Shown here one piece after another: positions 20,302-61,500 of a DNA stretch of 64,000 nucleotides; position 1 is the first letter of the stretch, and each line of letters starts with the position of its first letter. The stretch is from Pseudomonas hydrolytica. GTDB lineage: Bacteria; Pseudomonadota; Gammaproteobacteria; Pseudomonadales; Pseudomonadaceae. Made by a program: the position numbers and the translations under genes. The notes beneath the pieces are model-generated. The model saw nothing but the letters and a program-made list of their open reading frames with translations. It made no database searches and was not told the DNA's origin. The stretch spans positions 2,418,001 through 2,482,000 of the forward strand of contig NZ_CP099397.1 of the NCBI RefSeq assembly GCF_021495345.1, in the 5' to 3' direction.

Positions 20302-20330
20302 GAACATCCGCTGCTGGCGCTTTCTCCAAA
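20302..20330 (+). promoter_or_regulatory. ECF/AlgU-like promoter before the broken KGG gene
   Basis: GAACAT, 17 nt, TCCAAA, with AAATAGGCT just upstream. It ends 45 nt before the ATG at 20375. Part of the recurring GAAC-N16-18-TC set. Confidence 0.45.
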
Positions 20331-20374
20331 TCAGAGCAGGGCAATGTTGCCTGGCCAGTCGAGGAGACCGCGAC

Positions 20375-20538
20375 ATGAACCATAACCCCGGAAATCTCGC
20401 CAATGATCGTCAGAAGGCCTCGGAGGCCGGCAAGAAGGGCGGGCGCAGCAGCGGGGCAGCTTCGCCAACGACCGTCAGAAAGCGACCGAAGCCGGACGCA
20501 AGGGTGGCCGAAACAGCCACGGCGGTGGCCGCACCTGA
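20375..20538 (+). pseudogene. KGG-repeat stress protein gene broken by a one-base deletion
   Basis: From the ATG (GAGGAG upstream) the frame encodes NPGNLANDRQKASEAGKKGG, a con-10/GsiB-type KGG repeat. At the GGGG run around 20452-20455 the frame is lost. Adding one G restores a second repeat (FANDRQKATEAGRKGG), an NSHGG tail and a TGA at 20536-20538. The restored protein closely matches the intact paralogue at 22552-22722. As read, the frame continues to 20629 with unrelated sequence. It is either a true recent pseudogene, a phase-variable tract or a sequencing error in a homopolymer. Intact members are small, hydrophilic, stress-induced proteins. Confidence 0.8.
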
Positions 20539-20627
20539 ACGTACCGAGGTGACGGGATGCCGCTGGCAGGCCTCCCGGGCGCGCTCGCGAGGGCCTCTAC
20601 GGGAAGGCGCGGGCGGCGAAATACCTT

Positions 20628-20656
20628 GAACCCGCGAAGCGGCGAGCGAGTCAGGT
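20628..20656 (+). promoter_or_regulatory. ECF/AlgU-like promoter before galU
   Basis: GAACCC, 17 nt, TCAGGT, ending 34 nt before the galU ATG. It is followed by the GTACCAA/TTGGTAC hairpin in the short leader. Confidence 0.45.
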
Positions 20657-20660
20657 TCTA

Positions 20661-20683
20661 GTACCAACCCACTCATTTGGTAC
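20661..20683 (+). promoter_or_regulatory. Inverted repeat GTACCAA-N9-TTGGTAC in the galU leader
   Basis: A perfect 7-bp dyad ends 7 nt before the galU start codon and covers the place where a ribosome site should be. No clear Shine-Dalgarno is seen outside it, so the structure could limit translation or be an operator. Confidence 0.4.
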
Positions 20684-20690
20684 GAGCCTC

Positions 20691-21554
20691 ATGATCACGA
20701 AATGCTTATTCCCCGCTGCGGGTTACGGTACCCGCTTTCTTCCCGCTACCAAGTCGATGCCCAAGGAAATGCTACCGGTGGTCGACACGCCGCTGATCCA
20801 GTACGGCGTCGAGGAAGCGCTCGAGGCCGGCCTTACCCAGATCGCCATCGTCACCGGGCGCGGCAAGCGCTCGCTGGAAGACCACTTCGACATCAGCTAC
20901 GAACTCGAGCACGAGATTTCCAATACCAGCAAGGAAAAATCCCTCATCGGCATTCGCCATCTGATCGAAACCTGCACCTTTTCCTATACCCGCCAGGTGG
21001 AGATGAAGGGCCTCGGCCATGCCATCCTCACCGGTCGCCCGCTGATCGGCGACGAGGCCTTTGCCGTGGTGCTGGCCGACGACCTGTGCCTTAACGTCGA
21101 CGGCGACGGCGTGCTGAGCCAGATGGTCAAGCTCTACGAGCAGTTCCGCTGCTCCATCGTGGCGATCGAGGAAGTGCCCATGGACGAGGTGTCGCGCTAC
21201 GGCGTGATCGCCGGCGAAGCGCTGCGCGAGGACATCTTTCGCGTCGAGCGCATGGTGGAAAAACCGAACCCCGAAGACGCACCGTCCAACCTGGCGATCA
21301 TCGGTCGCTACATTCTCACCCCCGACATCTTCGAACTGATCGAGCAGACCGAGCCGGGCAAGAGCGGCGAGATCCAGATCACCGACGCGCTGATGAAGCA
21401 GGCCCAGCAGGGCTGCGTGCTGGCCTACAAGTTCAAGGGCCAACGCTTCGACTGCGGTTCGGCCGAGGGCTACGTGCAGGCCACCAACTTCTGCTTCGAG
21501 AATCGCCACAAGACTCACCCCGTGATCGCCAGCCCACGCCTGCAGGCGGTGTAG
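20691..21554 (+). CDS. galU: UTP-glucose-1-phosphate uridylyltransferase
   Basis: 287 aa. The N-terminal nucleotide-binding motif AAGYGTRFLPATK and later VVLADDLC, IGRYILTP and GEIQITDAL are typical of bacterial GalU. It makes UDP-glucose from UTP and glucose-1-phosphate, a donor for exopolysaccharide and lipopolysaccharide and a branch point from the glucan pool made by the genes further right. The SDR gene follows after 28 nt and is probably in the same transcript. Its place in a stress island and its poor ribosome site suggest it may be a second, regulated copy; I cannot see the rest of the genome to confirm that. Confidence 0.93.
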   Translation: MITKCLFPAAGYGTRFLPATKSMPKEMLPVVDTPLIQYGVEEALEAGLTQIAIVTGRGKRSLEDHFDISYELEHEISNTSKEKSLIGIRHLIETCTFSYTRQVEMKGLGHAILTGRPLIGDEAFAVVLADDLCLNVDGDGVLSQMVKLYEQFRCSIVAIEEVPMDEVSRYGVIAGEALREDIFRVERMVEKPNPEDAPSNLAIIGRYILTPDIFELIEQTEPGKSGEIQITDALMKQAQQGCVLAYKFKGQRFDCGSAEGYVQATNFCFENRHKTHPVIASPRLQAV

Positions 21555-21582
21555 CGCATCAACCATCAGCGGAGAAGCGCAG

Positions 21583-22437
21583 ATGAACGACAAGACATTG
21601 CCCGCGCAGCATCAGGATCGACAACCCGGTCTCGAGCACGCCATGCATCCCGAACCCGTGTACCTGTCCGATAGCTACCGCGCCGCCGACAAGCTCGCCG
21701 GCAAGGTGGCGATCATCACCGGCGGCGACAGCGGCATCGGCCGCGCCGTCGCCGTGCATTACGCCCTGGAAGGGGCCAAGGTCGCGCTGGTCTATCTCGA
21801 CGAGAACGAAGACGCGCAAAAGACCGTGGACGAGGTGACCCGCCATGGCAGCGAGGCGATCGCCCTGGCCGGCGACGTGGGCGACGCAGGCTTCTGCCAG
21901 TGCGTCGTCGATGCGGTGATCGCCAAGTGGGGACGCCTCGACATCCTGATCAACAACGCCGGCGAGCAGCATCCCAAGGAAGACCTGCTGGAGCTGGAGG
22001 AGGCGGATTGGGAGCGTACCTTTCGCACCAACATCCTGGCCATGTTCCAGCTCACCAAGGTGGCGCTCAGGCACCTGCAATCGGGCGCCAGCATCATCAA
22101 CACCAGCTCGGTCACGGCCTACAAGGGCAACCCCATGCTGCTCGACTACTCCTCGACCAAGGGCGCGATCACCTCGTTCACCCGCTCCCTGGCGATCAAC
22201 CTGGCGCCGCGCGGCATCAGGGTCAACGGCGTGGCACCAGGGCCGATCTGGACACCCTTGATCCCGTCCACCTTCAGCGCCGACAAGGTCGCCGAGTTCG
22301 GCGCCGACACCCCGCTGGGGCGCCCTGGGCAGCCCTCGGAAGTGGCCCCGGCCTATGTCTACCTGGCCAGCAACGACGCCTCCTACATGACCGGGCAGAT
22401 GCTCCACGTCAACGGCGGCAGCGTGGTCAATGGTTGA
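21583..22437 (+). CDS. NAD(P)-dependent short-chain dehydrogenase (YghA-like)
   Basis: 284 aa. A classical SDR with the cofactor motif TGGDSGIGR (46-54), NNAGEQHP (about 124-131) and the catalytic Ser plus Tyr189 and Lys193 (YSSTK). The roughly 40-residue N-terminal extension and the EQHPKED stretch match the YghA/YhxC-like subgroup found with stress proteins. The substrate is unknown. The start has GGAGAAG upstream. It follows galU closely, and its stop is 114 nt before the intact KGG gene. Confidence 0.88.
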   Translation: MNDKTLPAQHQDRQPGLEHAMHPEPVYLSDSYRAADKLAGKVAIITGGDSGIGRAVAVHYALEGAKVALVYLDENEDAQKTVDEVTRHGSEAIALAGDVGDAGFCQCVVDAVIAKWGRLDILINNAGEQHPKEDLLELEEADWERTFRTNILAMFQLTKVALRHLQSGASIINTSSVTAYKGNPMLLDYSSTKGAITSFTRSLAINLAPRGIRVNGVAPGPIWTPLIPSTFSADKVAEFGADTPLGRPGQPSEVAPAYVYLASNDASYMTGQMLHVNGGSVVNG

Positions 22438-22472
22438 GTGCGCAGGCAGTCGGGAACGATGAAAAATACCCT

Positions 22473-22502
22473 GAACGACTCGACGCCTGATCTGCCTCAA
22501 TT
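22473..22502 (+). promoter_or_regulatory. ECF/AlgU-like promoter before the intact KGG gene
   Basis: GAACGA, 18 nt, TCAATT, preceded by GAAAAATACCCT. It ends 49 nt before the ATG at 22552. Confidence 0.45.
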
Positions 22503-22551
22503 TATGTGAAGGCAATAACGCCTCGCGAACAACTATCAGGAGGTACCAGCA

Positions 22552-22722
22552 ATGGCTACCAGCAAGAATCCGGGTAACTTCGCAAACGATCGTGAAAAGG
22601 CATCGGAAGCCGGCCGCAAGGGCGGCCACAACAGCGGCGGCAACTTTGCCAATGACCGCGAAAGAGCGTCCGAGGCAGGGCGCAAGGGTGGCCAGAACAG
22701 CCACGGCGGTCGTAACTCGTGA
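22552..22722 (+). CDS. KGG-repeat stress protein (con-10/GsiB/YciG-like)
   Basis: 56 aa made of two tandem KGG repeats: NFANDREKASEAGRKGG and NFANDRERASEAGRKGG, ending in an NSHGG tail. Such small glycine-rich hydrophilic proteins are induced by general stress, desiccation or stationary phase in many bacteria; the mechanism is not settled. The start has an excellent AGGAGG 9 nt upstream. It has its own ECF-like promoter and is followed at once by a strong terminator, so it is a single-gene unit. The paralogue at 20375 is frameshifted. Confidence 0.9.
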   Translation: MATSKNPGNFANDREKASEAGRKGGHNSGGNFANDRERASEAGRKGGQNSHGGRNS

Positions 22723-22728
22723 CCGCTT

Positions 22729-22759
22729 CGTCAGGGCCCGCTTCTAGCGGGCCCTGACG
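22729..22759 (+). terminator. Rho-independent terminator after the KGG gene
   Basis: A perfect 13-bp GC-rich stem (CGTCAGGGCCCGC / GCGGGCCCTGACG) with the loop TTCTA begins 7 nt after the KGG stop. Only a short TT follows. Confidence 0.75.
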
Positions 22760-22800
22760 TTCCAGCCTGCGTGATTACAAGACCTGAGGAGTGCATGACG

Positions 22801-23268
22801 ATGAACGCCATCGAACTGCTGAAGAAGGACCATGAAACCGTCAAGGAGCTGCTGAGCCGGCTCGAGGAAACCACCGAGCGCGCGGTGCAGACGCGCAAGA
22901 AACTGATCAGCAAGATCGAGCAGGAACTGAAGATTCATACCGCGCTGGAAGAGCAGATTTTCTATCCCGCGTTCCGCCAGGCCGGCAGCAAGGACGATGC
23001 GGTGCTGGCCATCGAGGCGAAGGAAGAACACCGCGCCGTCGAGGCGCTGGTGCTGCCGGACATCAAGCAGACCTCGCCCTCGACCCTGGAGTTCGCCGGC
23101 CGCGTCAAGGTGCTCAAGGAGCTGCTCGAGCACCATATCGAGGAAGAGGAAAACGACATGTTCCCGCAGGCCAGAAAGCTCCTCGGCAAGCGCGAACTGG
23201 AGGACCTCGGCCAGGCCATGGAAACCCTGCGCAAATCGCTCAAGCAGGGCGAGGCCAAGGCAGCCTGA
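22801..23268 (+). CDS. Hemerythrin HHE cation-binding protein
   Basis: 155 aa from the ATG at 22801, which stands 9 nt after GAGGAG; an ATG at 22795 is too close to that site. It is a four-helix HHE protein with a likely diiron set at His11, His46, Glu50, His77, His111/112 and Glu116 (motifs KKDHETVK, IHTALEEQ, EEHRAVEA, HHIEEEEND). Such proteins bind O2 or NO or store iron and are often stress-linked. It is followed by a terminator shared with the convergent methyltransferase gene. I found no clear promoter between the upstream terminator and this gene. Confidence 0.9.
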   Translation: MNAIELLKKDHETVKELLSRLEETTERAVQTRKKLISKIEQELKIHTALEEQIFYPAFRQAGSKDDAVLAIEAKEEHRAVEALVLPDIKQTSPSTLEFAGRVKVLKELLEHHIEEEENDMFPQARKLLGKRELEDLGQAMETLRKSLKQGEAKAA

Positions 23269-23281
23269 TCCTCACCAGGCG

Positions 23282-23304
23282 GGTGCCTGCGCGCGGCAGG
23301 CACC
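23282..23304. terminator. Bidirectional hairpin between convergent genes
   Basis: A perfect 9-bp stem GGTGCCTGC / GCAGGCACC with the loop GCGCG, 13 nt past the hemerythrin stop and just past the stop of the convergent methyltransferase gene. Confidence 0.6.
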
Positions 23305-23310
23305 TGCTGC

Positions 23311-24279
23311 TCAACGCTGTCGCGCCTGCGGCTGATAGGTCAGGCGCAGCGCCACGCAGGCGATACGATCGGCCTGCGCATAGGCCGGGTGCTGCAACTC
23401 CTCGCCGAACACGTCCGGATCGATTTCCTCGTAGCTCCAGTCCCAGCCGGTGTCGCCCAGCGACAGGCGGATGGCGTTGAGGAAGGGATCCTCGCCGTCG
23501 AAGATGGCCACGCCGGTATACAGCAGCAGCGTGCCGCCAGGGGCCAGACGTTCCATGGCCGTATCGAAGATCGCCAGCGACAGACCCGCACCGTGCTTGC
23601 CGCCGCCATGGCGATAGGTGCGTTGCTGCGGGTCGAGCATGTAGGGCGGGTTGGCGATGATCAGATCGAAGTAGCCGTCCACATCCCTGAGCAGATCGCT
23701 CTTGCTCACCTCCAGATTGAAGATGCCGGCCAGCCGCGCGTTCACCGCGGTCATGGCCAGCGCTCGTTCGTTGATGTCCAGGGCCAGCACCTGCGCCCCC
23801 GGACGCAGCTGCGCCGCGGTGATGGCGCCGGGCCCCGCGCCGCAGCCGATATCGGCGATGCGCCGCAGCGGCTGGTGGCAGTGCGTGAGGTGCTCGCGCA
23901 GCAGACGGGTGAAGCGATAGGTATCCGGACCGAAGAACACCGCATCGGCCTCCTCGGTGGGAAAGCGCGAATGGGCATACAGGCCGCCGTCGAGGGTCGA
24001 CCAGCGCACCCGGCTGCGCCATTGCCCGTCCTGCCCCTGCAGCACCTGCGCTTCGTCCATGGCTTCGATGATCTCGGGTTCCAGCAGCCCATCGGCGAAC
24101 GGGCGGCTCCAGCCGAAGACGTCGCGCAGATCGCGTGCCTGCTCGTTGCCGGGGCGGCCATTGACCCGTTGGTGGGTCGCCGGCGTCGGCGTGATGAAGT
24201 GATAACCGCGTGCCCGCAGTAGCGTGCCCAGACGCAGCAGGGCGAGGGTGGCGGGCGAAGCGAAATCCGGCTGATGCAT
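23311..24279 (-). CDS. Class I SAM-dependent methyltransferase with NPPY motif
   Basis: 322 aa. Residues about 138-260 form a Rossmann methyltransferase with motif I IADIGCGAGPGA and the catalytic NPPY (210-213). NPPY is typical of HemK/PrmC, RsmC and other N-methyltransferases acting on amide or base nitrogens. An N-terminal domain of about 130 residues precedes it. The substrate is unknown. It starts 14 nt after the stop of the diiron oxidase-like gene, so the two are very likely one operon. Confidence 0.85.
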   Translation of the reverse strand: MHQPDFASPATLALLRLGTLLRARGYHFITPTPATHQRVNGRPGNEQARDLRDVFGWSRPFADGLLEPEIIEAMDEAQVLQGQDGQWRSRVRWSTLDGGLYAHSRFPTEEADAVFFGPDTYRFTRLLREHLTHCHQPLRRIADIGCGAGPGAITAAQLRPGAQVLALDINERALAMTAVNARLAGIFNLEVSKSDLLRDVDGYFDLIIANPPYMLDPQQRTYRHGGGKHGAGLSLAIFDTAMERLAPGGTLLLYTGVAIFDGEDPFLNAIRLSLGDTGWDWSYEEIDPDVFGEELQHPAYAQADRIACVALRLTYQPQARQR

Positions 24280-24293
24280 GGGTGTCTCCAGAG

Positions 24294-25694
24294 TCAGTGA
24301 GCCTGCTGCAAGAGCGCGGCGAAGCTGCGCGTGGCCGCCAGGCCGGCCGCAGAGGCATGGTGCGCCGGAGCCAGCAGTTCGATCAGGCGACGTTCGCGGC
24401 CGGCTGGATCGAGACCTGCCAGCTGCGCCTGCAGCTCGCGCCGTTCGCGGTCCAGTTCGCCGCCCTGGGTCGCGGCGCCGGGCAGGTGTGAGACCTGGGC
24501 AGGGCGCCGCGGGCGGAAGGGGTTGGTCTGCTCGTCCTGGCTCCAGTCGCCGGCGATCCAGTCGTGCAGCAATTGCTTTTCGTAGGGACTGAACACGCCG
24601 AACATCGCCGCGCCTTCACCCTGCACCAGACGCCAGAAGCGGCTGTTGGCCGGATCCCTGTCGCGCCTGATCCAGCCATGCTGCTGCAGGGCGTCGAGAA
24701 AGCCGGCCACATCGCCTTCGGCGCCGAGCCATTCGTTGACCGTGCGCCCGCCGATACGGCAGTAATCGGAATGCACCTGGCTGGCCACGCTGCGCTTGCG
24801 CTCCAGCATCGCCAGCAGCTCGTGCTGTAGGTCGAAGGCTTCGATCACCGCCGTCGAGCCCGTGCCCAGCTCGCCGAGGCGATAGCCGTTTCGCACGCGC
24901 TGGTAGAACGCCTCGGCGTCGCCGACGACAGGCAGATTGTCCAGCACGCACTGCACGGCCTTGGCGGCATGGCCGGTGGCGCTGTTGTCGATGGTCACGT
25001 GCAGCTGGAAATAGTAGGGATCGATGCCCAGCTCGTTGAGCTCGAAACTGCTGATCAGCAGGTGCAGGGGCGGCTGTTCGTAACCCAGGTTGTAGCCGAT
25101 GATTTCCGGCAGATAACGCTCGCACGCCAGGCCCAGGGCCAGCTGGATCGCTCCCTGGCGATAGAGTCCGTCGTCCAGCGCCTCGAGGTCGTCGCAGCCC
25201 TGGGTATGCAGCAGCCGGCGATACAGCAGCACGTGGTTCTGCGCCGGCACGCCGTCGCCCAGCTCTTCCAGGTAGGTACGCACCAGTGCGTGCATGCGCG
25301 CGTCGCGCCAGTGCGGCAGCGTGCCGTAGAGCCAGGCGCCATCGACAAGCTTGGTCGGCGCCACCGCGCGCAGAAAGTGCAGGGCATGGGAGCGATGCGG
25401 AAAGTAGCGCCGCTCGGCACCGGCGCGCCGGCTCGCCAGGTAGGCCGCGTACTGTTCGGTCACCGCCTGCGCATGCTGCCGGGACCACTGCGTCAGTTCC
25501 TCTACGCGGGACGGCAGCTCGCAGGGCAGCTCGCGGGCCTGCTCCAGGCATTGCTCGAGAAACTCCAGCGCCAGGGCATGGCCCGGCACGGGTTCGTCCA
25601 GCAGCTGGCGATAGGTGCGTTGCCAGGTGCCTTGCCGGGGCGGTGGCGCAATGGGGGTGGCGGAGGTGCTGTCGACGAAGCTGGCGATCGACAT
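24294..25694 (-). CDS. Iron-containing redox enzyme, heme-oxygenase-like diiron (HDO) family
   Basis: 466 aa. The central helical domain (about 135-250) carries candidate metal ligands in HDO order: Glu143/144 and His154 (YLEELGDGV..NHVLLYRR), Glu197/Glu206 (PEIIGYNLGYE), then His232, Asp236 and His242 (LHVTIDNSATGHA). HDO proteins use a labile diiron site for oxygen-dependent N-oxygenation, desaturation or C-C cleavage, often in small natural-product pathways. The domain is extended at both ends (about 100 and 200 residues), which is larger than single-domain HDOs. GAGGAG precedes the start. It diverges from the YbdK-like gene. Confidence 0.82.
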   Translation of the reverse strand: MSIASFVDSTSATPIAPPPRQGTWQRTYRQLLDEPVPGHALALEFLEQCLEQARELPCELPSRVEELTQWSRQHAQAVTEQYAAYLASRRAGAERRYFPHRSHALHFLRAVAPTKLVDGAWLYGTLPHWRDARMHALVRTYLEELGDGVPAQNHVLLYRRLLHTQGCDDLEALDDGLYRQGAIQLALGLACERYLPEIIGYNLGYEQPPLHLLISSFELNELGIDPYYFQLHVTIDNSATGHAAKAVQCVLDNLPVVGDAEAFYQRVRNGYRLGELGTGSTAVIEAFDLQHELLAMLERKRSVASQVHSDYCRIGGRTVNEWLGAEGDVAGFLDALQQHGWIRRDRDPANSRFWRLVQGEGAAMFGVFSPYEKQLLHDWIAGDWSQDEQTNPFRPRRPAQVSHLPGAATQGGELDRERRELQAQLAGLDPAGRERRLIELLAPAHHASAAGLAATRSFAALLQQAH

Positions 25695-25795
25695 GAAAGG
25701 GTTCTCCTCGAACGGGCCTTGTTCTGTTTAGGAGGGCGCCGCCGGGACAAGATTCCACCTAATTTGCCGGTGCCTGCCGCTTCGTCCGAGAGGTT

Positions 25796-25824
25796 GAACC
25801 CTCACGCCCCGACGCCGCTCAACA
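25796..25824 (+). promoter_or_regulatory. ECF/AlgU-like promoter before the YbdK-like gene
   Basis: GAACCC, 17 nt, TCAACA, ending 25 nt before the ATG at 25850. Confidence 0.45.
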
Positions 25825-25849
25825 GCAGCAAAGGCGGAGTGGACGGGAC

Positions 25850-26986
25850 ATGACACAGAGCACTTTCGGCATCGAGGAAGAGTACTTTCTCACCGACCTG
25901 ACCAGCCGCCAGGTGGCCAGGCGCAACGTGGAGGCCTTCGCCACGGCCTGTCAGTACGAGCTCGGCGAGCGGGTGACGCGGGAGATGTTCGCCGCCCAGT
26001 TCGAAGTGGTCACCCCGGTGCTGCACAGCCTCACGGATGCCCGTCAGTGCCTGGAAGGTGCACGCCGCACCCTGGCGCGCCTGGCCAGGGAATTCGACTG
26101 CGGCGTGCTCGCCGCCGGCACCCATCCACTGGGCCAGTGGCGGCGCGTGCGGGCCACCGACATGCCGCGCTACCGAGCGATTTTCGATGATTACCGCATG
26201 GTCGCCAGCCGCAGCGTGCTGGCCGGGCTGCACGTGCATGTCGGCGTGGCCGAGGGCGTGGACCGTATCCGCCTGATGAACCGGCTGACGCCCTGGCTGC
26301 CGCTGCTGCTGGGCCTGAGTGCATCCTCGCCGTTCTGGAGCGGCCGCCCCTCCGGGCTGATGAGCTATCGCCAGGCGGTGTGCGACGAGTGGCCGCGCAT
26401 GGGCATCCCCGATCATTTCGCCGACGAGGCCGAGTACCAGCGCTACGTGCAGGTGATGACCGACACCGGTTGCATCCGCTCGGCGGCCAACCTGTGGTGG
26501 AACATCCGCCCCTCGCTGCGCTATCCGACGCTGGAGCTGCGCATCGCCGATGCCTGCCCGCGGCTGGACGATGCGCTGTGCCTCGCCGGGCTGTTTCGCG
26601 CCATGGTCGAGCATGTGCAGCTCACCCCGCATCACGCCTGGTGCGATGACCCGCTGATCCGCGTGCTCACCCTGGAAAACCGCTGGCGTGCCAAGCGCCA
26701 GGGCCTGCGCGGGCTGTTCATCGAACCGGCCAGCCAGCGTCTGCTGACCTTCGCCACCTGGCTGGAGGAGGTGCTCGAGCGCATCGCCATCCAGGTGCCC
26801 GCGAGCGACCGCTGGATACTGGAGCATGCGCGCCACCTGGCGCTGCATGGCGGCAGCGCCGAGGCACAGCTGGCCGAATACCGCGGCGCCCGCGCCAACG
26901 GCCTGGAACATGGCGAAGCGCTGCACCAGGTGGTCGACAGCCTGATGGCGCAAACCGAACTGCATCCGTCGCAACAATTAGCCTGA
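25850..26986 (+). CDS. YbdK-family carboxylate-amine ligase (glutamate-cysteine ligase type 2)
   Basis: 378 aa, normal length for the GCS2/YbdK family. Motifs include FGIEEEYFLT at the N-terminus, GTHPLGQW, LHVHVGV, FWSGRPSGLMSYRQ and WWNIRPSLRYPTLELRIAD. Members join a carboxylate to an amine using ATP; E. coli YbdK has weak glutamate-cysteine ligase activity, and the true substrate is usually unknown. The start is the ATG at 25850, downstream of an ECF-like promoter. It diverges from the HDO/methyltransferase pair, and the next gene starts 57 nt further on. Confidence 0.9.
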   Translation: MTQSTFGIEEEYFLTDLTSRQVARRNVEAFATACQYELGERVTREMFAAQFEVVTPVLHSLTDARQCLEGARRTLARLAREFDCGVLAAGTHPLGQWRRVRATDMPRYRAIFDDYRMVASRSVLAGLHVHVGVAEGVDRIRLMNRLTPWLPLLLGLSASSPFWSGRPSGLMSYRQAVCDEWPRMGIPDHFADEAEYQRYVQVMTDTGCIRSAANLWWNIRPSLRYPTLELRIADACPRLDDALCLAGLFRAMVEHVQLTPHHAWCDDPLIRVLTLENRWRAKRQGLRGLFIEPASQRLLTFATWLEEVLERIAIQVPASDRWILEHARHLALHGGSAEAQLAEYRGARANGLEHGEALHQVVDSLMAQTELHPSQQLA

Positions 26987-27012
26987 ACGTCCGCCCGAGA
27001 CCGATTTCGGAA
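26985..27012 (+). promoter_or_regulatory. ECF/AlgU-like promoter before the alcohol dehydrogenase
   Basis: GAACGT, 16 nt, TCGGAA; the -35 overlaps the stop codon of the upstream ligase gene and the -10 ends 31 nt before the ATG. The -10 is identical to that before glgE. Confidence 0.4.
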
Positions 27013-27043
27013 TAGGGACATGCCCTGTTCCAGGAGAAAGCTC

Positions 27044-28210: not shown

Positions 28211-28229
28211 GCCGCTGGCCCGATTGTCT

Positions 28230-28259
28230 GAACCTTTGCCAGGGGGGCGCGCTTCTAAA
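28230..28259 (+). promoter_or_regulatory. ECF/AlgU-like promoter before the small membrane-protein gene
   Basis: GAACCT followed after 17 nt by TTCTAA, or after 18 nt by TCTAAA. It ends about 52 nt before the ATG at 28311. Confidence 0.4.
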
Positions 28260-28310
28260 TCTCATCGGAGCCGCAAAGGCCCGTTATTCATCCTGACAGG
28301 AGGAACTGCC

Positions 28311-28673: not shown

Positions 28674-28734
28674 ACCAGGCTCGTCGCGATGGCGCGCTGG
28701 CGCCGTCGCCACACCGCAATTGGAGGAGGCAGCG

Positions 28735-29169: not shown

Positions 29170-29175
29170 GCAAGA

Positions 29176-29218
29176 ACGGCGCCTGCCCGATGCCGCAGCG
29201 TATCGGCGCGGGCGCCGT
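29176..29218. terminator. Hairpin between convergent genes
   Basis: Outer arms ACGGCGCC / GGCGCCGT pair perfectly over 8 bp, and inner CCGAT / ATCGG can extend the structure. It lies 6 nt after the acidic-protein stop, before a convergent gene. There is no T-tract. Confidence 0.4.
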
Positions 29219-29712: not shown

Positions 29713-29740
29713 GAATGAATGCGCATGGCCGGTTTGGTTC
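29713..29740 (-). promoter_or_regulatory. ECF/AlgU-like promoter before the Rho-N/SAP-like gene
   Basis: On the minus strand GAACCA, 16 nt, TCATTC. The -10 is 52 nt before the ATG. One of the weaker members of the set. Confidence 0.3.
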
Positions 29741-29775
29741 CCCGTTTCGGATGATCGGAGCTGCATCGATCAGCC

Positions 29776-29804
29776 GAACCTCTTCGCCGTTTCGCGGCTC
29801 AGAA
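29776..29804 (+). promoter_or_regulatory. ECF/AlgU-like promoter before the mgtC-like gene
   Basis: GAACCT, 17 nt, TCAGAA, ending 25 nt before the ATG at 29830. Confidence 0.45.
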
Positions 29805-30378: not shown

Positions 30379-30407
30379 GAACTTTTCCGCCTCCGGCTGC
30401 CTCGGAA
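30379..30407 (+). promoter_or_regulatory. ECF/AlgU-like promoter before the glgE-treS-glgB operon
   Basis: GAACTT (the AlgU -35 consensus), 17 nt, TCGGAA, preceded by TAAAACTGCCT. It lies about 80 nt before the glgE ATG and is one of the best matches in the window. Confidence 0.5.
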
Positions 30408-40877: not shown

Positions 40878-40906
40878 TTGTGAGCCGCCCCCGAGGGGGT
40901 AAGTTC
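40878..40906 (-). promoter_or_regulatory. ECF/AlgU-like promoter for the secreted-protein/DUF3182 operon
   Basis: On the minus strand GAACTT, 17 nt, TCACAA, preceded by CCAAAACCCT. Its -35 is the left arm of the 13-bp inverted repeat. Confidence 0.5.
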
Positions 40907-40947
40907 AGGGTTTTGGATAAGTGGAAAGGGCAGAAAAACCCTGAACT
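40902..40947. promoter_or_regulatory. Perfect 13-bp inverted repeat holding divergent GAACT elements
   Basis: AGTTCAGGGTTTT (40902-40914) and AAAACCCTGAACT (40935-40947) are exact reverse complements, 20 nt apart. Each arm reads outward as AAAACCCTGAACT, the same text as the -35 region of other promoters in this island. The rightward copy (GAACTC, 17 nt, CACAAA) would serve glgP but has a poor -10. Confidence 0.6.
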
Positions 40948-41037
40948 CGACGGCGTTCCTGCGGCCACAAACTAGAAAGCCGAACGCTCGTTTCGGTGTC
41001 TCACCACTGCGCCGCGCGGCTGCGCGAAGGACAGGCC

Positions 41038-43770: not shown

Positions 43771-43800
43771 CATAGACCCGCGCCCTGCTAGGGGGAGTTC
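43771..43800 (-). promoter_or_regulatory. ECF/AlgU-like promoter before the 73-aa protein gene
   Basis: On the minus strand GAACTC, 18 nt, TCTATG, preceded by GAAAAGACT. The -10 is 34 nt before the ATG at 43737. Confidence 0.4.
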
Positions 43801-48130: not shown

Positions 48131-48428
48131 GACTGTCTCCCGTGACCGACCGAAGCCGGTGTTGGTGAATTTCGGCTGATGCCCAGATACTGGCTGCAAG
48201 CCAGCACCCATGCGGCATACGCGACGGGTCGTGTTCAGGGCCTATGAGTTTTCGAGTGAGCGGGCGAGAGCTGGGTTCAGGTTATTTTCCCCAGCCGTGC
48301 CCACCGGCGAGTGGCTCGCCAGGCAATTCGCAGCCGCGAGGGGAGGGATCGCGGCCCGGGCAGGCTGCCCTGCCGGTCCGCGGAGCGCCTGGAATTGCGC
48401 CGGCAAGCGACGCAACTCCAAGCCTTTT
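48131..48428 (-). other. Gene-free stretch between glgX and the alcohol dehydrogenase
   Basis: 298 bp. It holds the candidate promoter at 48250-48278 and two small 6-bp hairpins, GGCGAG-TGG-CTCGCC (48306-48320) and GGCAGG-CTGC-CCTGCC (48359-48374), which may end the glgX transcript but lack T-tracts. I see no coding sequence. Confidence 0.6.
48250..48278 (-). promoter_or_regulatory. ECF/AlgU-like promoter before the alcohol dehydrogenase-ybhP-clsB-ybhN operon
   Basis: On the minus strand GAACCC, 17 nt, TCGAAA, preceded by GGAAAATAACCT. It leaves a leader of about 115 nt. Confidence 0.45.
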
Positions 48429-55631: not shown

Positions 55632-57382
55632 TGCACGGGCTCCAGGGTGACCAGGACACTGCGCGCCGGCAGTTGCTCCTGACGTAGGTCGGCATCCTCG
55701 ATGCGGTAGGTGTACAGCCGCTCGGCCTGCGCGCTCGGGGCCGGCAGATGCACCGCGCCCGCGCCCAGGTTCAGCGCGATGCTCAGCGTCGGCCCGTTGC
55801 CGAGCCGCCAGCGCGCCAGCACGGCCGCGTCGCCCAGTACCTCTGCGCCGAGGCTGCGTGCCTCCTGCAGACCCGGCTGCAGACGCGTGCGGCGCACCTG
55901 CAGCAGACCGCGGTAGAAGGCCAGCCAGTCGCGCTGCTGCGGCTCCAGCGCCGGTGCCAGATCCGGCTGCGAACGCAGGAAGCTGGCCAACGCGTTGGGA
56001 TCGGCGATGGTCTCGCGGCTATGGGCGTCGCTGAAGCGGGAGAATTCGGCGAACTCGTTGCGCCGGCCCTCGCGCACCGCATTGGCCAGCTCGTCGTGAT
56101 AGTCGGTGAAGAACAGGAACGGCCTCGTGCAGCCCCATTCCTCGCCCATGAACAGCAGCGGCACCATGGGGCAGAGCAGCAGCAGCACGGTGGCCGCCTT
56201 CAGCGCATCGGGCTCGGCCAGCAGCGCCAGGCGTTCGCCGAAGGCGCGGTTGCCGACCTGGTCGTGGTTCTGCAGAAACAGCACGAAGGCATGCGGCGGC
56301 AGGTCGGCGCTGGGCTCGCCACGCGGGCGGCCGTGGCGATTGGCCTGGCCCTGATAGACGAAACCCTGCTCCAGACAGGTGGCCAGCTTGCGCGTCGGCG
56401 CCTGGGCGTAGTCGGCGTAGTAGCTCTCGTCCTCGCCGGTGAGCAGCACGTGCAGGGTGTTGTGGCCGTCGTCGTTCCACTGCGCATCGAAACCGTCGCG
56501 CAGCAGATGCGCGGCGTTGTTCTCGTTCTCCAGCACCAGGTGCACGTGGCGCTGCGCCGGTACCGCGGCGCGCACGCGCGAGGCCAGCTCGCGGAGAAAG
56601 CCGTCGTCGTCGATGGCGTGTACCGCGTCCAGACGCAGGCCATCGATGCGATAGTCGAGCAGCCACATCAGGGCGTTCTCGCAGAAGAAATCGCGTACCT
56701 GCGGCCGGCCGAAATCGATGGCAGCGCCCCAGGGCGTGGCACGCTCCTCGTGGAAGAACTGGCGGGCGTACAGCCCCAGGTAATTGCCGTCCGGGCCGAA
56801 GTGGTTGTAGACCACGTCGACGAAGACCATCAGGCCGAAGGCGTGGGCGCTATCGACCAGGCGCCTGAGTTCATCCGGCGTGCCGTAGCAGCTCGCCGGC
56901 GCGAAGGGCAGCACCCCGTCGTAACCCCAGTTGCGCCGGCCGGAAAAGGCGGCGAGCGGCATCAGCTGCAGCGCCGTGACGCCCAGGTCGACCAGGTGCG
57001 GCAGATGCTCCTCGACCTGCTGGAAGCCCCCGAACAGGCCGACGTGCAGCTCGTAGATCACCGCCTCGTGCCAGGGCCGGCCGTGCCAGTCGCAATGGCG
57101 CCATTCATAGCGCTGCGGGTCCACCACCTGGCTGAAACCGTGCACATCGTCCACCTGCCGTCGCGAGGCAGGGTCCGGCACCGTCCATTGTTCGTCGATC
57201 AGGTAGCGGTAACTGGCTTCCGCTGGGCAATCGAGCAGCAGCACGAACCAGCCGTCGTCCTGGGGCGTCAGCCGGTGCTGACTGCCGTCCAGCAGTTGCA
57301 GGTCCACGCGCCGGCAACTGGGCGCCCAGAGTGCGAAACGTGTACGTCCATCGGCCATCGGCCGGGCGCCATGGCTGTACAT
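55628..57382 (-). CDS. treZ: TreZ, malto-oligosyltrehalose trehalohydrolase
   Basis: 584 aa from the ATG at 57382. A GH13_10 enzyme with an N-terminal sandwich domain (FALWAPSCRRVDL), the nucleophile in DGLRLDAVHAIDD, the acid in LVLENENNAAHLL and QNHDQVGNR. It cuts free trehalose from the end made by TreY. Its first base overlaps the last base of the glgA stop codon (TGATG). The frame remains open to 59302 upstream, but that part is an antiphase shadow of glgA. Confidence 0.95.
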   Translation of the reverse strand: MYSHGARPMADGRTRFALWAPSCRRVDLQLLDGSQHRLTPQDDGWFVLLLDCPAEASYRYLIDEQWTVPDPASRRQVDDVHGFSQVVDPQRYEWRHCDWHGRPWHEAVIYELHVGLFGGFQQVEEHLPHLVDLGVTALQLMPLAAFSGRRNWGYDGVLPFAPASCYGTPDELRRLVDSAHAFGLMVFVDVVYNHFGPDGNYLGLYARQFFHEERATPWGAAIDFGRPQVRDFFCENALMWLLDYRIDGLRLDAVHAIDDDGFLRELASRVRAAVPAQRHVHLVLENENNAAHLLRDGFDAQWNDDGHNTLHVLLTGEDESYYADYAQAPTRKLATCLEQGFVYQGQANRHGRPRGEPSADLPPHAFVLFLQNHDQVGNRAFGERLALLAEPDALKAATVLLLLCPMVPLLFMGEEWGCTRPFLFFTDYHDELANAVREGRRNEFAEFSRFSDAHSRETIADPNALASFLRSQPDLAPALEPQQRDWLAFYRGLLQVRRTRLQPGLQEARSLGAEVLGDAAVLARWRLGNGPTLSIALNLGAGAVHLPAPSAQAERLYTYRIEDADLRQEQLPARSVLVTLEPVQ

Positions 57383-58908
57383 CAGCGCTGCTCCCTCCTG
57401 GCGCTGCTTCGTGCCAGCAGGCGCTGATACAGGCGGTCGTAGGGGCGTACCGATTGCCGCCAGTACAGCGGCGCGTGCATGGCGTGGCAGCGCATGGCGT
57501 CGAAAAGCTCGCGGTGGCGATACACCTGCAGGGCCCGGTCGATGGCGGCTCGATAGCTGGCGGCATCCGGTTCGTCGAAGAGAAAGCCGCTGACGCCATC
57601 CTCGATGGTGTCGGCCAGCCCGCCGGTGCGCCGGGCAATCGGCAGCGAGGCGAAGCGCTGGGCGTAGATCTGGCTCAGCCCGCAGGGCTCGAAACGCGAC
57701 GGCATGAGCAGGAAGTCGCTGGCCGCGTACAGACGCCGCGCATCGGTCTCGTTGAAGCCGATGTGCACGCCGATGCGTCCCGGATAGCGCTGCGCCAGTT
57801 GCGCCATGGCCGCCTCCAGAGCCGGTTCGCCGCGACCGATGGCACCGATGCGGCCGCCCTGGGCGACGATGTGCTCGGCCACCTCCAAGGTCAGGTCGAT
57901 GCCTTTCTGCTGCACCAGACGGGAAATCACCGCGAACAGCGGCCCCTCGGCCTCCAGGCCCAGCCATTGCTCGACATAGGCGGCGTTGGCGCGCTTGCCT
58001 TCCCACTGGCGCGGGGCGAAGCCCTGCAGCAGGTGCGGGTCGGTTTCCGGGTTCCAGCTTTCGTCGATGCCGTTGACGATGCCGCTGAGCTGCCCTGCGG
58101 CCACCTTGGCCTGCAGCATGCCCTCGAGCCCGCAGCCGAACGCGGGGGTGGTGATCTCCTGGGCATAGGTGCGGCTCACCGTGGTGACGTGATGGGCATA
58201 CGAGATACCGGCCTTGAGAAACGACAGGCGGCCGTGGAACTCCATGCCGTCGATGCCGCAGGCCTCCTCGGGGATCGCCAGCTCGCTGCTGCAGGCCATG
58301 TCGCACAGGCCCTGGTAGGCCAGGTTGTGAATGGTCAGCAGGGCCGGTGCCGTGGCGCCACGCCAGGCCATGTAGGCCGGCGCCATGGAAGCGGGCCAGT
58401 CGTTGGCGTGCACCAGGTCCGGACGCCACTGGATGCCGGCGTCGCCGGTGGCGATTTCCGCCGCGGCCAGCCCCAGGCGGGCGAAACGGATGTGGTTGTC
58501 GGGCCAGTCCTGGCTCTGCGCATCGCCATAGGGTGTGCCGTCGCGTTCGTAGAGCACGGGGTTGAGCAGCACATAGACGATCAGGCCATCGGCCAGATCC
58601 ATGCGTCCGATGCGGCACGGCGGCAACGCCGCCAGCCCGCGGACATGGCCGACGATGCGGATCGGCCAACCGCTTTCCACCACCTGGCGATAGCCGGGGA
58701 TCAGCAGGCGGATATCGTGTTGCGGTGCCAGCGCCCGCGGCAGTGCGGCGGACACGTCGCCGAGACCACCGCATTTGATCAGGTCGCTGAATTCGGAAGT
58801 GACGAAGAGCACCCGCTTGCGCTGCGGGTGGTGGCTGCCCATGTGCAAGGGAGGCTGAATGTCCGCCGGAAGCTTGGCGTTTGGGTTGATAGCTGCAGCG
58901 GTTCCCAT
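57382..58908 (-). CDS. glgA: GlgA, glycogen/starch synthase (GT5)
   Basis: 508 aa from the ATG at 58908 (GGAG 8 nt upstream); longer in-frame starts have no support. The N-terminal donor loop appears as IKCGGLGDVSAALPRAL (K-x-G-G-L pattern), and the C-terminal domain has SRFEPCGLSQIYAQRF and RRTGGLADTIEDG. Bacterial GlgA normally uses ADP-glucose; no glgC lies in this window, so the donor source is open. First gene of the leftward operon that continues with treZ, malQ, treY, DUF2934 and glgX. Confidence 0.95.
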   Translation of the reverse strand: MGTAAAINPNAKLPADIQPPLHMGSHHPQRKRVLFVTSEFSDLIKCGGLGDVSAALPRALAPQHDIRLLIPGYRQVVESGWPIRIVGHVRGLAALPPCRIGRMDLADGLIVYVLLNPVLYERDGTPYGDAQSQDWPDNHIRFARLGLAAAEIATGDAGIQWRPDLVHANDWPASMAPAYMAWRGATAPALLTIHNLAYQGLCDMACSSELAIPEEACGIDGMEFHGRLSFLKAGISYAHHVTTVSRTYAQEITTPAFGCGLEGMLQAKVAAGQLSGIVNGIDESWNPETDPHLLQGFAPRQWEGKRANAAYVEQWLGLEAEGPLFAVISRLVQQKGIDLTLEVAEHIVAQGGRIGAIGRGEPALEAAMAQLAQRYPGRIGVHIGFNETDARRLYAASDFLLMPSRFEPCGLSQIYAQRFASLPIARRTGGLADTIEDGVSGFLFDEPDAASYRAAIDRALQVYRHRELFDAMRCHAMHAPLYWRQSVRPYDRLYQRLLARSSARREQR

Positions 58909-59030
58909 GTCTATCTCCAATGTTCGAGTACACCTGAGGGCATCCCGGGCAAAACGCCACGGGCGGGTAGGAGAGCGGAGTCGCAACATGTGGCTCGAAG
59001 CCTTGGCTATCCATCGCCCCCATACTCTTT

Positions 59031-59059
59031 TGCTGACGGGGCGAAAGCGGCAAAGGTTC
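59031..59059 (-). promoter_or_regulatory. ECF/AlgU-like promoter for the glgA operon
   Basis: On the minus strand GAACCT, 17 nt, TCAGCA, preceded by CAAAAAAAGGTC. It leaves a leader of about 120 nt before glgA. Confidence 0.45.
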
Positions 59060-59096
59060 GACCTTTTTTTGTCTGACAAGCGCAGCGGAAAAGGTT

Positions 59097-59125
59097 GAAC
59101 TTTGCCCGCCCCGACAGCTTCCACA
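59097..59125 (+). promoter_or_regulatory. ECF/AlgU-like promoter before the CinA-like gene
   Basis: GAACTT, 17 nt, TCCACA, preceded by GGAAAAGGTT. It ends 34 nt before the ATG at 59160 and diverges from the glgA promoter 38 nt away. Confidence 0.45.
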
Positions 59126-59159
59126 GAGCGGTAGCCAACAAGCCCGGAGGTTGTGGCAG

Positions 59160-59642
59160 ATGGACAGCGTCGAGCAGATCGTCAACTTTCTGAACAAGTA
59201 CAAACTGCGCCTGAGTACGGCGGAATCCTGCACGGCAGGACTGATCGCCTCGCTGGTGGCCGATATTCCCGGCAGCGGCCAGGTGCTCGACTGCGGTTTC
59301 ATCGTCTATTCACCCGAGGCCAAGCAGCAGTGCCTGGGCGTCAGCGCCGAGACCATCGAGCGCTTCGGCCTCACCAGTGAGGAGGTCGCGCAGGAAATGG
59401 CCCTTGGCGCGCTGACCCGCAGCGGCGCGGATATCGCCCTGGCCAACACCGGGCTGGCCGAGGCCGACGACGAGATGGACGGCGTGCAGTGCATCGCCTG
59501 CGCGATCCGCCTCGATCAGCACCAGGGCATCGTCAGCGAGACGGTGCAGTTCAGCGGCGATCGCAACGAGGTACGCCGCGCCGCCGCCAGCTACGCGCTG
59601 CTGCAGCTGCCCTATTACTACGAGCGCCTGCGCGCGGTCTGA
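59160..59642 (+). CDS. CinA C-terminal-domain protein (NMN amidohydrolase, PncC-like)
   Basis: 160 aa from the ATG at 59160, 9 nt after GGAGG. It is a single CinA C-terminal domain with LSTAESCTAGLIASLV at the N-terminus (the active-site Ser region of PncC), PGSGQVLDCGFIVYS and ALGALTRSGADIALANTGLA. PncC-type enzymes deamidate nicotinamide mononucleotide in NAD recycling. The usual conserved SG-x-AGP text reads ANTGLAE here, a departure worth testing for activity. It diverges from glgA and converges on the mscS gene. Confidence 0.85.
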   Translation: MDSVEQIVNFLNKYKLRLSTAESCTAGLIASLVADIPGSGQVLDCGFIVYSPEAKQQCLGVSAETIERFGLTSEEVAQEMALGALTRSGADIALANTGLAEADDEMDGVQCIACAIRLDQHQGIVSETVQFSGDRNEVRRAAASYALLQLPYYYERLRAV

Positions 59643-59651
59643 GAGCGCCGG

Positions 59652-60782
59652 CTATACCGGCGGCTGGCGCTGCGCATCGGCAGTGGGGGTGTTGCGCGGC
59701 GCCGCGTCTTCACTGCCGTGCAGGTTGGCGCGCAGTCGTGGCAGGTGATCGGGATAGCGGTTGCTGATGAAGGTGATCAGGTTCTCGCGGATGTAGCAGC
59801 GCAGGTCCCAGTTGCGCGAGGAGTCCGGCGAGCTGACCAGCACCCGCAGCTGGATGGCGCGGTCGCTGGTGTCCACCACCTGCAGCACGTTGACGCGCTC
59901 GTCCCACAGGTGTCGCGCCTCCTGACACAGGCGCGTCAGCTCCTGGCGCAGCGGCTCGAGCGGGGTGGCGTAATCCACCCAGAAGAACACCGAACCGGTG
60001 ATCGAGCTGGTCTGCCGCGTCCAGTTCTGAAAGGGGTTCTCGATGAACCACTGCAGGGGCACCACCAGCCGGCGATCGTCCCAGATGCGCACCACCACGT
60101 AGCTGCCGGTGATCTCTTCGATGCGCCCCCATTCGTTTTCGACGATCACCACGTCGTCCAGGCGGATCGGCTGGGTCAGGGCGATCTGCAGACCGGCGAT
60201 CAGGTTGCCCAGCACCGGCTTGGCGGCAAAGCCCACGGCCAGACCGGCGAGGCCGGCCGACGCCAGCAGACTGGTGCCGAACTGGCGCGCCGCGGGGAAG
60301 GTCATGAGCATGGTGGAGAAGCCGAAGATCACCACGAACACGCTGAGGATGCGCACCAGCACGCGGGTCTGCGTCTGGATGCGCCGCGCCTGCAGGTTGT
60401 CGGCCGTGTCCACCGGGTTGTACAGCACGACGATGCGCTGAACCGCCCCGACCGCGCGCAGGCCGAGCCAGGTAAATACGCCGATGGTGACCAGCGCCGC
60501 CAGGCGTCTGGCCTCGCCGATCAGCGCCATATTGTCCGGGGCGGCGTTGAGTACCAGTTGCATGGCCAGCAGCGGCAACAACCAGCGCAGCGGGTCACGC
60601 GTGCTTTGCAGCAGCACATGAGCAAAGGGCAGGGCACCGCTGAAGCGCGCCAGCAGGCGCAACAGGGTGCCGAAGAACAGGCTGGCCAGAGCAGCCGCGA
60701 TCACGGCGACGAGCAGGGTTCTCAACTCTGGCCAGGGCACGAAGGCGAGCCAGTCACCGTTCAATGCGGTTTCCGTGGGCAT
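59652..60782 (-). CDS. MscS-family mechanosensitive channel
   Basis: 376 aa. Several N-terminal spans (near 22-42, 65-82, 95-112, 145-165) lead to the pore helix region LLASAGLAGLAVGFAAKPVLGN, then the MscS beta domain (LTQPIRLDDVVIVENEWGRIEEI) and a C-terminal alpha/beta part. It is a larger relative of MscS that releases solutes on sudden osmotic downshift, which suits a locus for trehalose. It lies 35 nt after the DUF4142 gene in the same direction. Confidence 0.9.
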   Translation of the reverse strand: MPTETALNGDWLAFVPWPELRTLLVAVIAAALASLFFGTLLRLLARFSGALPFAHVLLQSTRDPLRWLLPLLAMQLVLNAAPDNMALIGEARRLAALVTIGVFTWLGLRAVGAVQRIVVLYNPVDTADNLQARRIQTQTRVLVRILSVFVVIFGFSTMLMTFPAARQFGTSLLASAGLAGLAVGFAAKPVLGNLIAGLQIALTQPIRLDDVVIVENEWGRIEEITGSYVVVRIWDDRRLVVPLQWFIENPFQNWTRQTSSITGSVFFWVDYATPLEPLRQELTRLCQEARHLWDERVNVLQVVDTSDRAIQLRVLVSSPDSSRNWDLRCYIRENLITFISNRYPDHLPRLRANLHGSEDAAPRNTPTADAQRQPPV

Positions 60783-60817
60783 CTGCAGTCATGCTCTCCG
60801 GGGTGCGCGTGCCTGGA

Positions 60818-61342
60818 TCAGTTCTCCGGCAGTTCGCCGTTGATCTGTTCGGCACGCTGCAGGTGCTGCTCCAGCTTGGGCAGGGTTTCCCGGGCGAAGG
60901 CGGCGATTTCCTCGTCCTTCACGTTCACGCCGCGGCGGAACAGCTCGATGGTCTGGCGGTGGGCCACCACCTGGTTGTTCATGTAGGCCTTGTCGAAGCT
61001 GCCTTCGCCGCGCAGCTTGAGCACCATGGCCTTGGCCTGATTGATCAGCTCGGCATCGTCGGACACGTCCAGGTCCTTGCGCTTGGCCAGCTCGGCCAGC
61101 TCCTGATTGGCCCGACGGTGATCGTCGATCATCATCTGCGCGAAGCCTTTGACCTTCTCGTTGCCGGACTTCTCCAGCGCCAGTTTGGCCGTCTCGATCT
61201 CGGCGACCCCCTTGGCCGACGCCTCCTCGACGAAGTCTTCGGTGCTGATCGAATCAGTCTCGTTGGCAGCCTGAATGGCCGTGACGGCGCACAGGGCGAA
61301 TGCGGCTACAGCCAGCATGGCAAGCGGTTTCAATGGGTTCAT
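60818..61342 (-). CDS. DUF4142 periplasmic protein
   Basis: 174 aa from the ATG at 61342, which has GGAGGAAG upstream and gives a signal peptide (LAMLAVAAFALCAVTAIQA). The mature part is a helical, ferritin-like DUF4142 domain (FVEEASAKGVAEIETAKLAL, then FAQMMIDDHRRANQELAELA, and VAHRQTIELFRRG). These proteins are widespread, stress-linked and unassigned. The long in-frame extension to 61603 has no support. Probably co-transcribed with the mscS-like gene. Confidence 0.87.
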   Translation of the reverse strand: MNPLKPLAMLAVAAFALCAVTAIQAANETDSISTEDFVEEASAKGVAEIETAKLALEKSGNEKVKGFAQMMIDDHRRANQELAELAKRKDLDVSDDAELINQAKAMVLKLRGEGSFDKAYMNNQVVAHRQTIELFRRGVNVKDEEIAAFARETLPKLEQHLQRAEQINGELPEN

Positions 61343-61373
61343 GTTGCTTCCTCCGGTAATGGGCGTGCACTGG

Positions 61374-61402
61374 GGTAGAAGGGCCGGGAAGCGATGAAGT
61401 TC
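61374..61402 (-). promoter_or_regulatory. ECF/AlgU-like promoter before the DUF4142-mscS operon
   Basis: On the minus strand GAACTT, 17 nt, TCTACC, preceded by GGGGAAATTCTTCCT. The -10 is about 31 nt before the ATG at 61342, the best-placed member of the set. Confidence 0.5.
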
Positions 61403-61471
61403 AGGAAGAATTTCCCCGTACCGGCGGCCCCAGCGGCGCAATGCCGTGGCGTGCGCCTGAAAATTCAACTC

Positions 61472-61500
61472 GAACCGAACCCCTGCGGGCTGCCTCATAA
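61472..61500 (+). promoter_or_regulatory. ECF/AlgU-like promoter before katE
   Basis: GAACCG, 17 nt, TCATAA, preceded by GAAAATTCAACTC. It leaves a leader of about 112 nt. Confidence 0.4.

Follow-up and report, generated by a model that had tools for sequence, protein, structure and literature searches.

We analysed a 64,000-nucleotide (nt) stretch of the Pseudomonas hydrolytica genome (the window; contig positions 2418001–2482000 of a single contig of 5.29 Mb), in which a stress-gene island, to the right of a type VI secretion part (<20.2 kb), carries a recurrent promoter-type element made of a GAAC core and a second block starting with TC. Pfam matches in the window include a galU-type nucleotidyl transferase, an SDR, a hemerythrin, GCS2/YbdK, two zinc-type alcohol dehydrogenases, Rho_N and MgtC, together with GlgE, TreS–maltokinase, DUF3182, CBS, phosphorylase, DUF2934, CinA, mechanosensitive channel, DUF4142 and catalase proteins, and the glgA operon encodes enzymes of the MalQ and starch-synthase types. 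The labels KGG, treZ, glgX and cls-like, used for window proteins without a Pfam call, come from an earlier note on this DNA (the original prediction), from reading by eye or from similarity. Genes were called by a home-made script that missed short genes, and we set the KGG gene and the start of galU manually.

Promoter-type sites ahead of the island genes

The original prediction had listed 16 such sites with their −10 hexamers, and all of them were indeed present with the letters it gave. The upstream regions were scored with a weight matrix which, like the extended pattern described below, was derived from these 16 sites and is circular to that extent; the leave-one-out score quoted for a region is that of its best site only. 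At the left end, the site of a broken KGG gene (GAACAT-N17-TCCAAA, 20302..20330, forward strand) scored 18.0 by leave-one-out within the galU upstream region, so that the galU–SDR site (GAACCC-N17-TCAGGT, 20628..20656, forward), taken from the alignment of the listed sites, has no score of its own. The frame of this KGG-repeat gene (window 20375–20540) is lost part-way, as judged by eye, though a promoter-type site precedes it, and there is an intact KGG gene at 22552. The KGG gene–hemerythrin promoter (GAACGA-N18-TCAATT, 22473..22502, forward; score 18.5) is kept in P. yangonensis (locus L106), except that the TC of the −10 is TG there. Sites that were likewise compared with L106 precede the YbdK-like (GCS2) gene (GAACCC-N17-TCAACA, 25796..25824, forward; 19.3), alcohol dehydrogenase 1 (GAACGT-N16-TCGGAA, 26985..27012, forward; 17.0), where the initial bases of the promoter overlap the 3′ end of the gene before it, and the 28311–28735 genes (GAACCT-N18-TCTAAA, 28230..28259, forward; 21.6).

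The weakest listed site, at 2.6, is that of the Rho_N gene (29660, reverse strand; GAACCA-N16-TCATTC, 29713..29740, reverse), which recurs in L106 and, with GAACCT as its −35, in L107; the mgtC-like promoter (GAACCT-N17-TCAGAA, 29776..29804, forward) scored 11.4 and has orthologous sites in L106, L107 and L108. The highest score, 25.0, belongs to the glgE–treS–glgB promoter (GAACTT-N17-TCGGAA, 30379..30407, forward), followed along the window by that of the secreted protein–DUF3182–hydrolase–CBS unit (GAACTT-N17-TCACAA, 40878..40906, reverse; 19.6, also compared with L106), the 73-amino-acid gene (GAACTC-N18-TCTATG, 43771..43800, reverse; 9.5) and the operon of alcohol dehydrogenase 2, EEP, cls-like and lysylphosphatidylglycerol (LPG) synthase-like genes (GAACCC-N17-TCGAAA, 48250..48278, reverse; 22.0). 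In the right part lie the promoters of the glgA–treZ–malQ–treY–DUF2934–glgX operon (GAACCT-N17-TCAGCA, 59031..59059, reverse; 18.0), the cinA-like gene (GAACTT-N17-TCCACA, 59097..59125, forward; 12.2), the DUF4142–mechanosensitive channel unit (GAACTT-N17-TCTACC, 61374..61402, reverse; 8.3) and katE (GAACCG-N17-TCATAA, 61472..61500, forward; 11.3).

The matrix also revealed two sites that were absent from the original prediction, both off-pattern. One, with an off-consensus −35, precedes a haem-oxygenase-like gene and a methyltransferase gene (GAATCT-N16-TCCTAA, 25728..25755, reverse; 17.5), and its L106 ortholog reads GAATCT-N17-TCCTAA. The other precedes glgP (GAACTC-N17-CACAAA, 40943..40971, forward), where the T is missing from the −10; it scored 18.2 at the N18 register and occurs also in L106 and L107.

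When the 16 listed sites were aligned on GAAC, letters outside the selection of the original prediction were shared as well. An A-rich stretch spans 5–9 nt upstream of GAAC, with A in 13/16 sites at 7 nt and in 12/16 at 5 nt, which bears out the earlier remark that many sites carry an A-run about 5 nt before the −35, and a T stands immediately 5′ of GAAC in 12/16. GAAC (16/16) and TC are there by selection; TT comes next to GAAC in 4/16 sites, and the −10 reads TCT in 3/16 and is A-rich thereafter.

Spacing, enrichment and conservation of the pattern

The original prediction had written the pattern as GAAC-N16-18-TC. Because its spacer was counted from the six-base −35 (GAACNN), the pattern is GAAC-N18-20-TC, that is, GAACNN-N16-18-TC; the core and the enrichment held in this form, whereas the literal spacing was not enriched. 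The 16 sites have spacers of N17 in 11, N18 in three and N16 in two, in agreement with the claim of a mostly 17-nt spacer, and 13/16 fall within the published AlgU range of 16–17 nt, the other three being 18. Control upstream regions came from 40 stretches of 20 kb (0.8 Mb in total, with two stretches flanking the window) and from the remaining window. The literal pattern was found in 2/20 island versus 40/448 other upstream regions (Fisher p = 0.55) and was dropped. The corrected pattern, on the other hand, occurred in 14/20 island versus 50/448 other upstream regions of the genome (Fisher p = 4e-9), with 4.55 matches per kb in upstream DNA of the island and 0.72 in that of other regions, versus 0.49 and 0.57 in coding DNA of the island and of other regions, so that the comparison with control DNA that had been proposed together with the pattern came out in its favour. 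Shifting the spacing to N21-23 gave 2/20 island versus 38/448 other regions (p = 0.52), and N12-14 was slightly raised (5/20 versus 43/448, p = 0.04).

The matrix gave a similar result, with scores of at least 10 in 14/20 island regions, by leave-one-out, versus 14/417 others, 31 of the 448 control regions having no scorable position; six of the 14 high-scoring control regions come from the 20-kb stretches on either side of the window. The richest of the 38 distant 20-kb stretches held four upstream regions with the pattern and two with a matrix score of 10, versus 15/20 and 17/20 in the island, in a comparison that took 20 nt more upstream sequence than the 14/20 versus 50/448 count and was not leave-one-out. 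The original prediction had not seen the pattern ahead of tssA or fha, and indeed none of the five upstream regions examined in the type VI secretion part had it. The upstream regions of hemerythrin, 28735 and CBS, which lack a site, are operon-internal in our reading because of their intergenic gaps, and by this operon reading 18/18 island units have a site, that of Rho_N being the weakest. With its spacing corrected, the promoter-type pattern is thus confirmed and greatly exceeds chance.

Beyond the window, the extended pattern AAANNNNYTGAAC-N18-20-TC gave 13 genome matches versus four for the reversed control, and nine of the 13 lie between 2,438,293 and 2,493,272 (55 kb), five of these nine belonging to sites used for the pattern. 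Of the eight matches not so used, four lie within 12 kb to the right of the window, one of them, at 2483781, not directly 5′ of any called gene. Other genome-wide forms were tried and rejected: CTGAACNN-N16-18-TCNNA gave 70 matches versus 39 reversed, with 6/70 in the island, and GAACTT-N16-18-TC alone is uninformative because its 269 matches compare with 384 for the reversed pattern. The full consensus GAACTT-N16-17-TCTGA had two genome matches versus one reversed, one of the two being the rpoH site.

We then compared the sites between species. Among named glgE genes, the nearest to that of the window come from P. yangonensis (89%) and P. chengduensis (87%), which makes membership of the organism in the P. 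mendocina/oleovorans group probable. Between the window and P. yangonensis, nine promoters agree at 54/54 bases of the −35 hexamers, 27/27 of the three preceding bases, 51/54 of the −10 hexamers and 45/54 of the A-run, with 52/125 in the spacers and 83/180 and 105/180 in the flanks; the L106 sites were picked by the matrix, so that GAAC and TC are partly selected, but the last two −35 bases (18/18) and the spacer are not. In this count glgP was scored at N17, the haem-oxygenase-like site was compared as N16 against N17, and the KGG site entered with its TG. The mgtC site, which stands outside the count since another match scored 0.2 higher, is conserved in L106 too, the higher match being the Rho_N promoter DNA in the opposite reading. 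The off-consensus −35 and −10 letters are kept unit by unit across species, and as each unit retains its own, promoter strength is probably set gene by gene.

The glgE comparison covered the best 80 of 593 loci from a named-genome scan with a GlgE alignment; the same kind of scan with DUF3182 as query found no relative. A scored site (>4) was present upstream of glgE in 70 of these 80 closest loci, mostly as TGAACTT-N16/17-TCGGA: GAACTT in 67, a T 5′ of it in 69, TCGGA in 61, and a spacer of 17 in 56 and of 16 in 14. GAACTT is undercounted by one here, because in L108 a scored GAACGG match outranked its GAACTT...TCGGA site. The eight compared spacer positions are just 37% alike pairwise. The bare pattern occurred in 73/80 upstream stretches versus 15/80 first coding stretches, 0/80 second ones and 34/80 on the antisense strand, the last figure being inflated, in part at least, by GAAC...GTTCGGA, which reads as GAAC...TC on the opposite strand. 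Ten loci have no scored site within 400 nt (L111, L112, L113, L114, L118, L122, L131, L135, L145 and L182), though L113, L114 and L131 have the bare pattern, and glgE may be under other control in these ten. Halopseudomonas and Halomonadaceae records are among them.

The probable sigma factor behind the island promoters

Promoters of AlgU (sigma-22, an RpoE-like extracytoplasmic function (ECF) sigma factor) in Pseudomonas and Azotobacter share with the island sites the GAAC core, the 16–17-nt spacing and a −10 starting with TC. The published AlgU consensus is GAACTT-N16/17-TCtgA (PMC10651043) or, in another paper, GAACTT-N16/17-TCTNN (PMC7641640), and the glgE promoter of the island has the full consensus −35. 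With the GAAC/TC core, the length-constrained but divergent spacer, the gene-by-gene footprints and the 70/80 glgE loci, assignment of the island promoters to the AlgU-type class appears well supported by sequence comparison. Among nine ECF-type sigma proteins tested, L096 alone passed the RpoE equivalog cut-off (321.8 bits versus 236), and its gene is followed by genes that look mucA- and mucB-like by eye. Within 400 nt upstream, this algU gene has two GAACTT-N16-TC sites and rpoH has one, and the upstream DNA of the other 13 candidate sigma genes lacks any GAACTT-type site in that range. Together with the Azotobacter precedent below, these findings make AlgU the best inference for the sigma factor of the island promoters. 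The original prediction had gone further and placed the island under one envelope-stress sigma factor; the promoter class stands, with AlgU as its probable reader, whereas control by one sigma factor does not follow from it. We put the probability that the island is an AlgU regulon of about 18 transcription units, with a separate AlgU-type promoter ahead of each, at roughly 80%.

The Azotobacter vinelandii algU mutant lacks GlgB, TreZ, hemerythrin, a Zn-alcohol dehydrogenase (Zn-ADH) and a glycogen phosphorylase, has MalQ and GlgX at 0.1, and the glgB operon promoter there is GAACTT-N17-TCggA (PMC10651043). For the AlgU-dependent proteins shared with the island, the table of that paper gives a promoter for GlgB only (PMC10651043). 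Homologues of the island's GlgB (glgE operon), MalQ, TreZ, GlgX, Zn-ADH, hemerythrin and glycogen phosphorylase thus belong to the Azotobacter AlgU regulon, although the corresponding genes are dispersed over several places there and form one island here. The genome that we took for A. vinelandii contains the published glgB and osmC strings. In it, the CBS–ADH pair is preceded by a GAACCC site with an A-run that scored 13.4, exceeding the 99% control quantile (11.8), and hemerythrin by a weaker GAACCC site that at 8.3 fell just short of the 95% quantile (8.5). Two of the four scorable AlgU-dependent units lacking a published prediction, with glgP left out, thus have a site, and four of 116 control regions reached at least 10. 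Two of four glgP homologues, in the Azotobacter-type loci L202 and L203, carried one in-frame TGA in a translated search.

In P. aeruginosa, much the same gene set, including the glgE and glgA operons and PA2146, occupies a stress region that we take to span PA2133–PA2192. In the EcfG/PhyR general stress response of Alphaproteobacteria, one ECF factor likewise serves a comparable gene set through a GGAAC −35, but that system differs in its GTT-like −10, its sigma family and its partner-switch control. The predicted regulon is of a known kind; its novelty lies in covering one island completely and in preserving the off-consensus form. The literature search, with most subscription papers and all supplements outside its scope, turned up no text that places the whole island under AlgU; in P. 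aeruginosa, trehalose production after ethanol runs through AlgU and (p)ppGpp (Harty 2019, cited in PMC8084333).

The island promoter would consist of an A-rich stretch, a −35 of (C)TGAAC plus two loosely conserved bases, a 16–18-nt spacer of free sequence and a −10 starting with TC, and the A-rich stretch may touch the alpha subunits of RNA polymerase. Envelope, osmotic or drying stress leads to degradation of MucA, the anti-sigma factor of AlgU. On a signal of this presumed type, the freed AlgU with core RNA polymerase would transcribe all of the units, which together would yield trehalose/alpha-glucan, catalase, KGG, hemerythrin and other protective proteins. The block of trehalose, glycogen, catalase and KGG genes is probably switched on as a unit, and the promoters, located to the base, turn a loose stress-gene cluster into one predicted regulon. 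A role of the A-run as an UP element would fit the published rescue of ECF promoters from GC-rich genomes by an A/T-rich UP element in E. coli (PMC3817407), short of proof.

Several points weigh against the AlgU assignment. In a P. fluorescens rpoS mutant, glgE was at 0.25, treS at 0.30, glgB at 0.21, glgP at 0.19, treY at 0.23, glgX at 0.30 and katE at 0.19 of wild type (PMC6372562). Many AlgU-regulated genes of P. syringae had no AlgU binding at their promoters (PMC9436044), so that AlgU dependence can be indirect, and the activity of a P. aeruginosa PA2146 (KGG) reporter was not increased by salt (PMC9262955). Most island sites miss the strict published consensus, because only 4/16 have GAACTT and 3/16 TCT; unlike the published form, 12/16 have no TT after GAAC, 11 have N17 and three N18, and an A-run and a T 5′ of GAAC are added. 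Since the genome's own algU and rpoH sites have N16, no A-run and no T 5′ of GAAC, the island form does not just repeat the housekeeping AlgU form. In the genome taken for A. vinelandii, no site was found ahead of glgA–treZ or the CsbD-like gene.

Direct reading of the island by RpoS, with the GAAC/TC pairs secondary or incidental, would fit the values of 0.19–0.30 in P. fluorescens and the counterpart region of P. aeruginosa, which is RpoS-controlled. However, the RpoS-like −10 CTAYACT was present in 0/20 island versus 7/448 other upstream regions and in 1/80 glgE upstream regions versus a mean of 2.2 in shuffles, its variant CYATACT occurred in 1/20 (cinA) versus 8/448, which is no enrichment, and no sigma-70-like or RpoN-like pattern was enriched in the island upstream regions. 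RpoS would also leave the conserved GAACTT-N16/17-TCGGA unexplained, and we consider its direct action quite unlikely; our guess is that its effect on the P. fluorescens homologues is indirect. The RpoS dependence of the P. fluorescens glgE and katE homologues stands beside glgE upstream regions with no matching enriched RpoS −10, and the conflict between the dependence reported there and the −10 search here is thereby sharpened. A different ECF sigma factor, whether SigX or one not yet characterised, could read the island form, which differs from the algU and rpoH promoters (A-run, T 5′ of GAAC, N17 versus N16) and has 9/13 of its extended genome matches nearby, and the SigX consensus is described as not precisely defined (PMC7641640). 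Against this stand the 0/13 other candidate sigma genes with a GAACTT-type site, the sole equivalog pass of L096, and the A. vinelandii GlgB, which is AlgU-dependent behind an operon site of exactly the island class (PMC10651043), and we therefore regard another ECF factor as unlikely.

The joint conservation of the A-run and CCTGAAC, like an operator half, might point to an activator binding site instead of a promoter, but two gene-oriented blocks 16–18 nt apart, with a free spacer and a second block starting with TC, have the geometry of a promoter, which makes an activator site very unlikely. That a short pattern chosen by eye arose by chance might be argued from the lack of enrichment of the literal form and from weak single sites such as that of Rho_N; this explanation is already refuted by the enrichment over 448 upstream regions and coding DNA, the leave-one-out scores and the species footprints, and its probability is negligible.

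If AlgU is the sigma factor, the island could tentatively form a separate AlgU promoter class, in which the A-run, CTGAACNN and the 17-nt spacer impose dependence on the alpha subunit or on a co-activator ((p)ppGpp/DksA or another protein), giving one switch separable from the envelope-repair core (algU, rpoH); we find this possible but doubtful. Were it true, GAACTT-based matrices would miss most of the class, which could explain some of the Azotobacter AlgU-dependent genes without a predicted promoter. With off-consensus GAACNN retained between two species (54/54 in nine promoters), a GAACTT-only matrix would understate AlgU regulons.

Extent of the island and candidates elsewhere

To the right of the window (L072, 2482001–2502000), matrix scores of at least 10 were obtained upstream of the genes at 7553 (reverse), 8613 (forward), 11022 (reverse) and 11340 (forward), which are those of a KGG protein, a divergent FAD/Rieske oxidoreductase, a DUF2383 protein and one further gene. 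The island therefore extends about 12 kb beyond the right end of the window. The 7.1–12.3 kb part of L072 holds two DUF2383 genes together with the FAD/Rieske oxidoreductase, KGG protein and DUF892 protein genes, the DUF892 gene scoring 9.5. About 18 kb to the left of the window, a divergent pair in L071 (1385, reverse, and 1664, forward), galE-like and glycosyltransferase-like by eye, has moderate sites of 13.6 and 15.3. Outside the island, a pyrroloquinoline quinone (PQQ) glucose dehydrogenase gene (L088, 5129, forward; 15.8) and a BamE-domain lipoprotein gene (L064, 7743, forward; 16.2) are regulon candidates, and the lipoprotein picked by the matrix we take, by eye, for OsmE.

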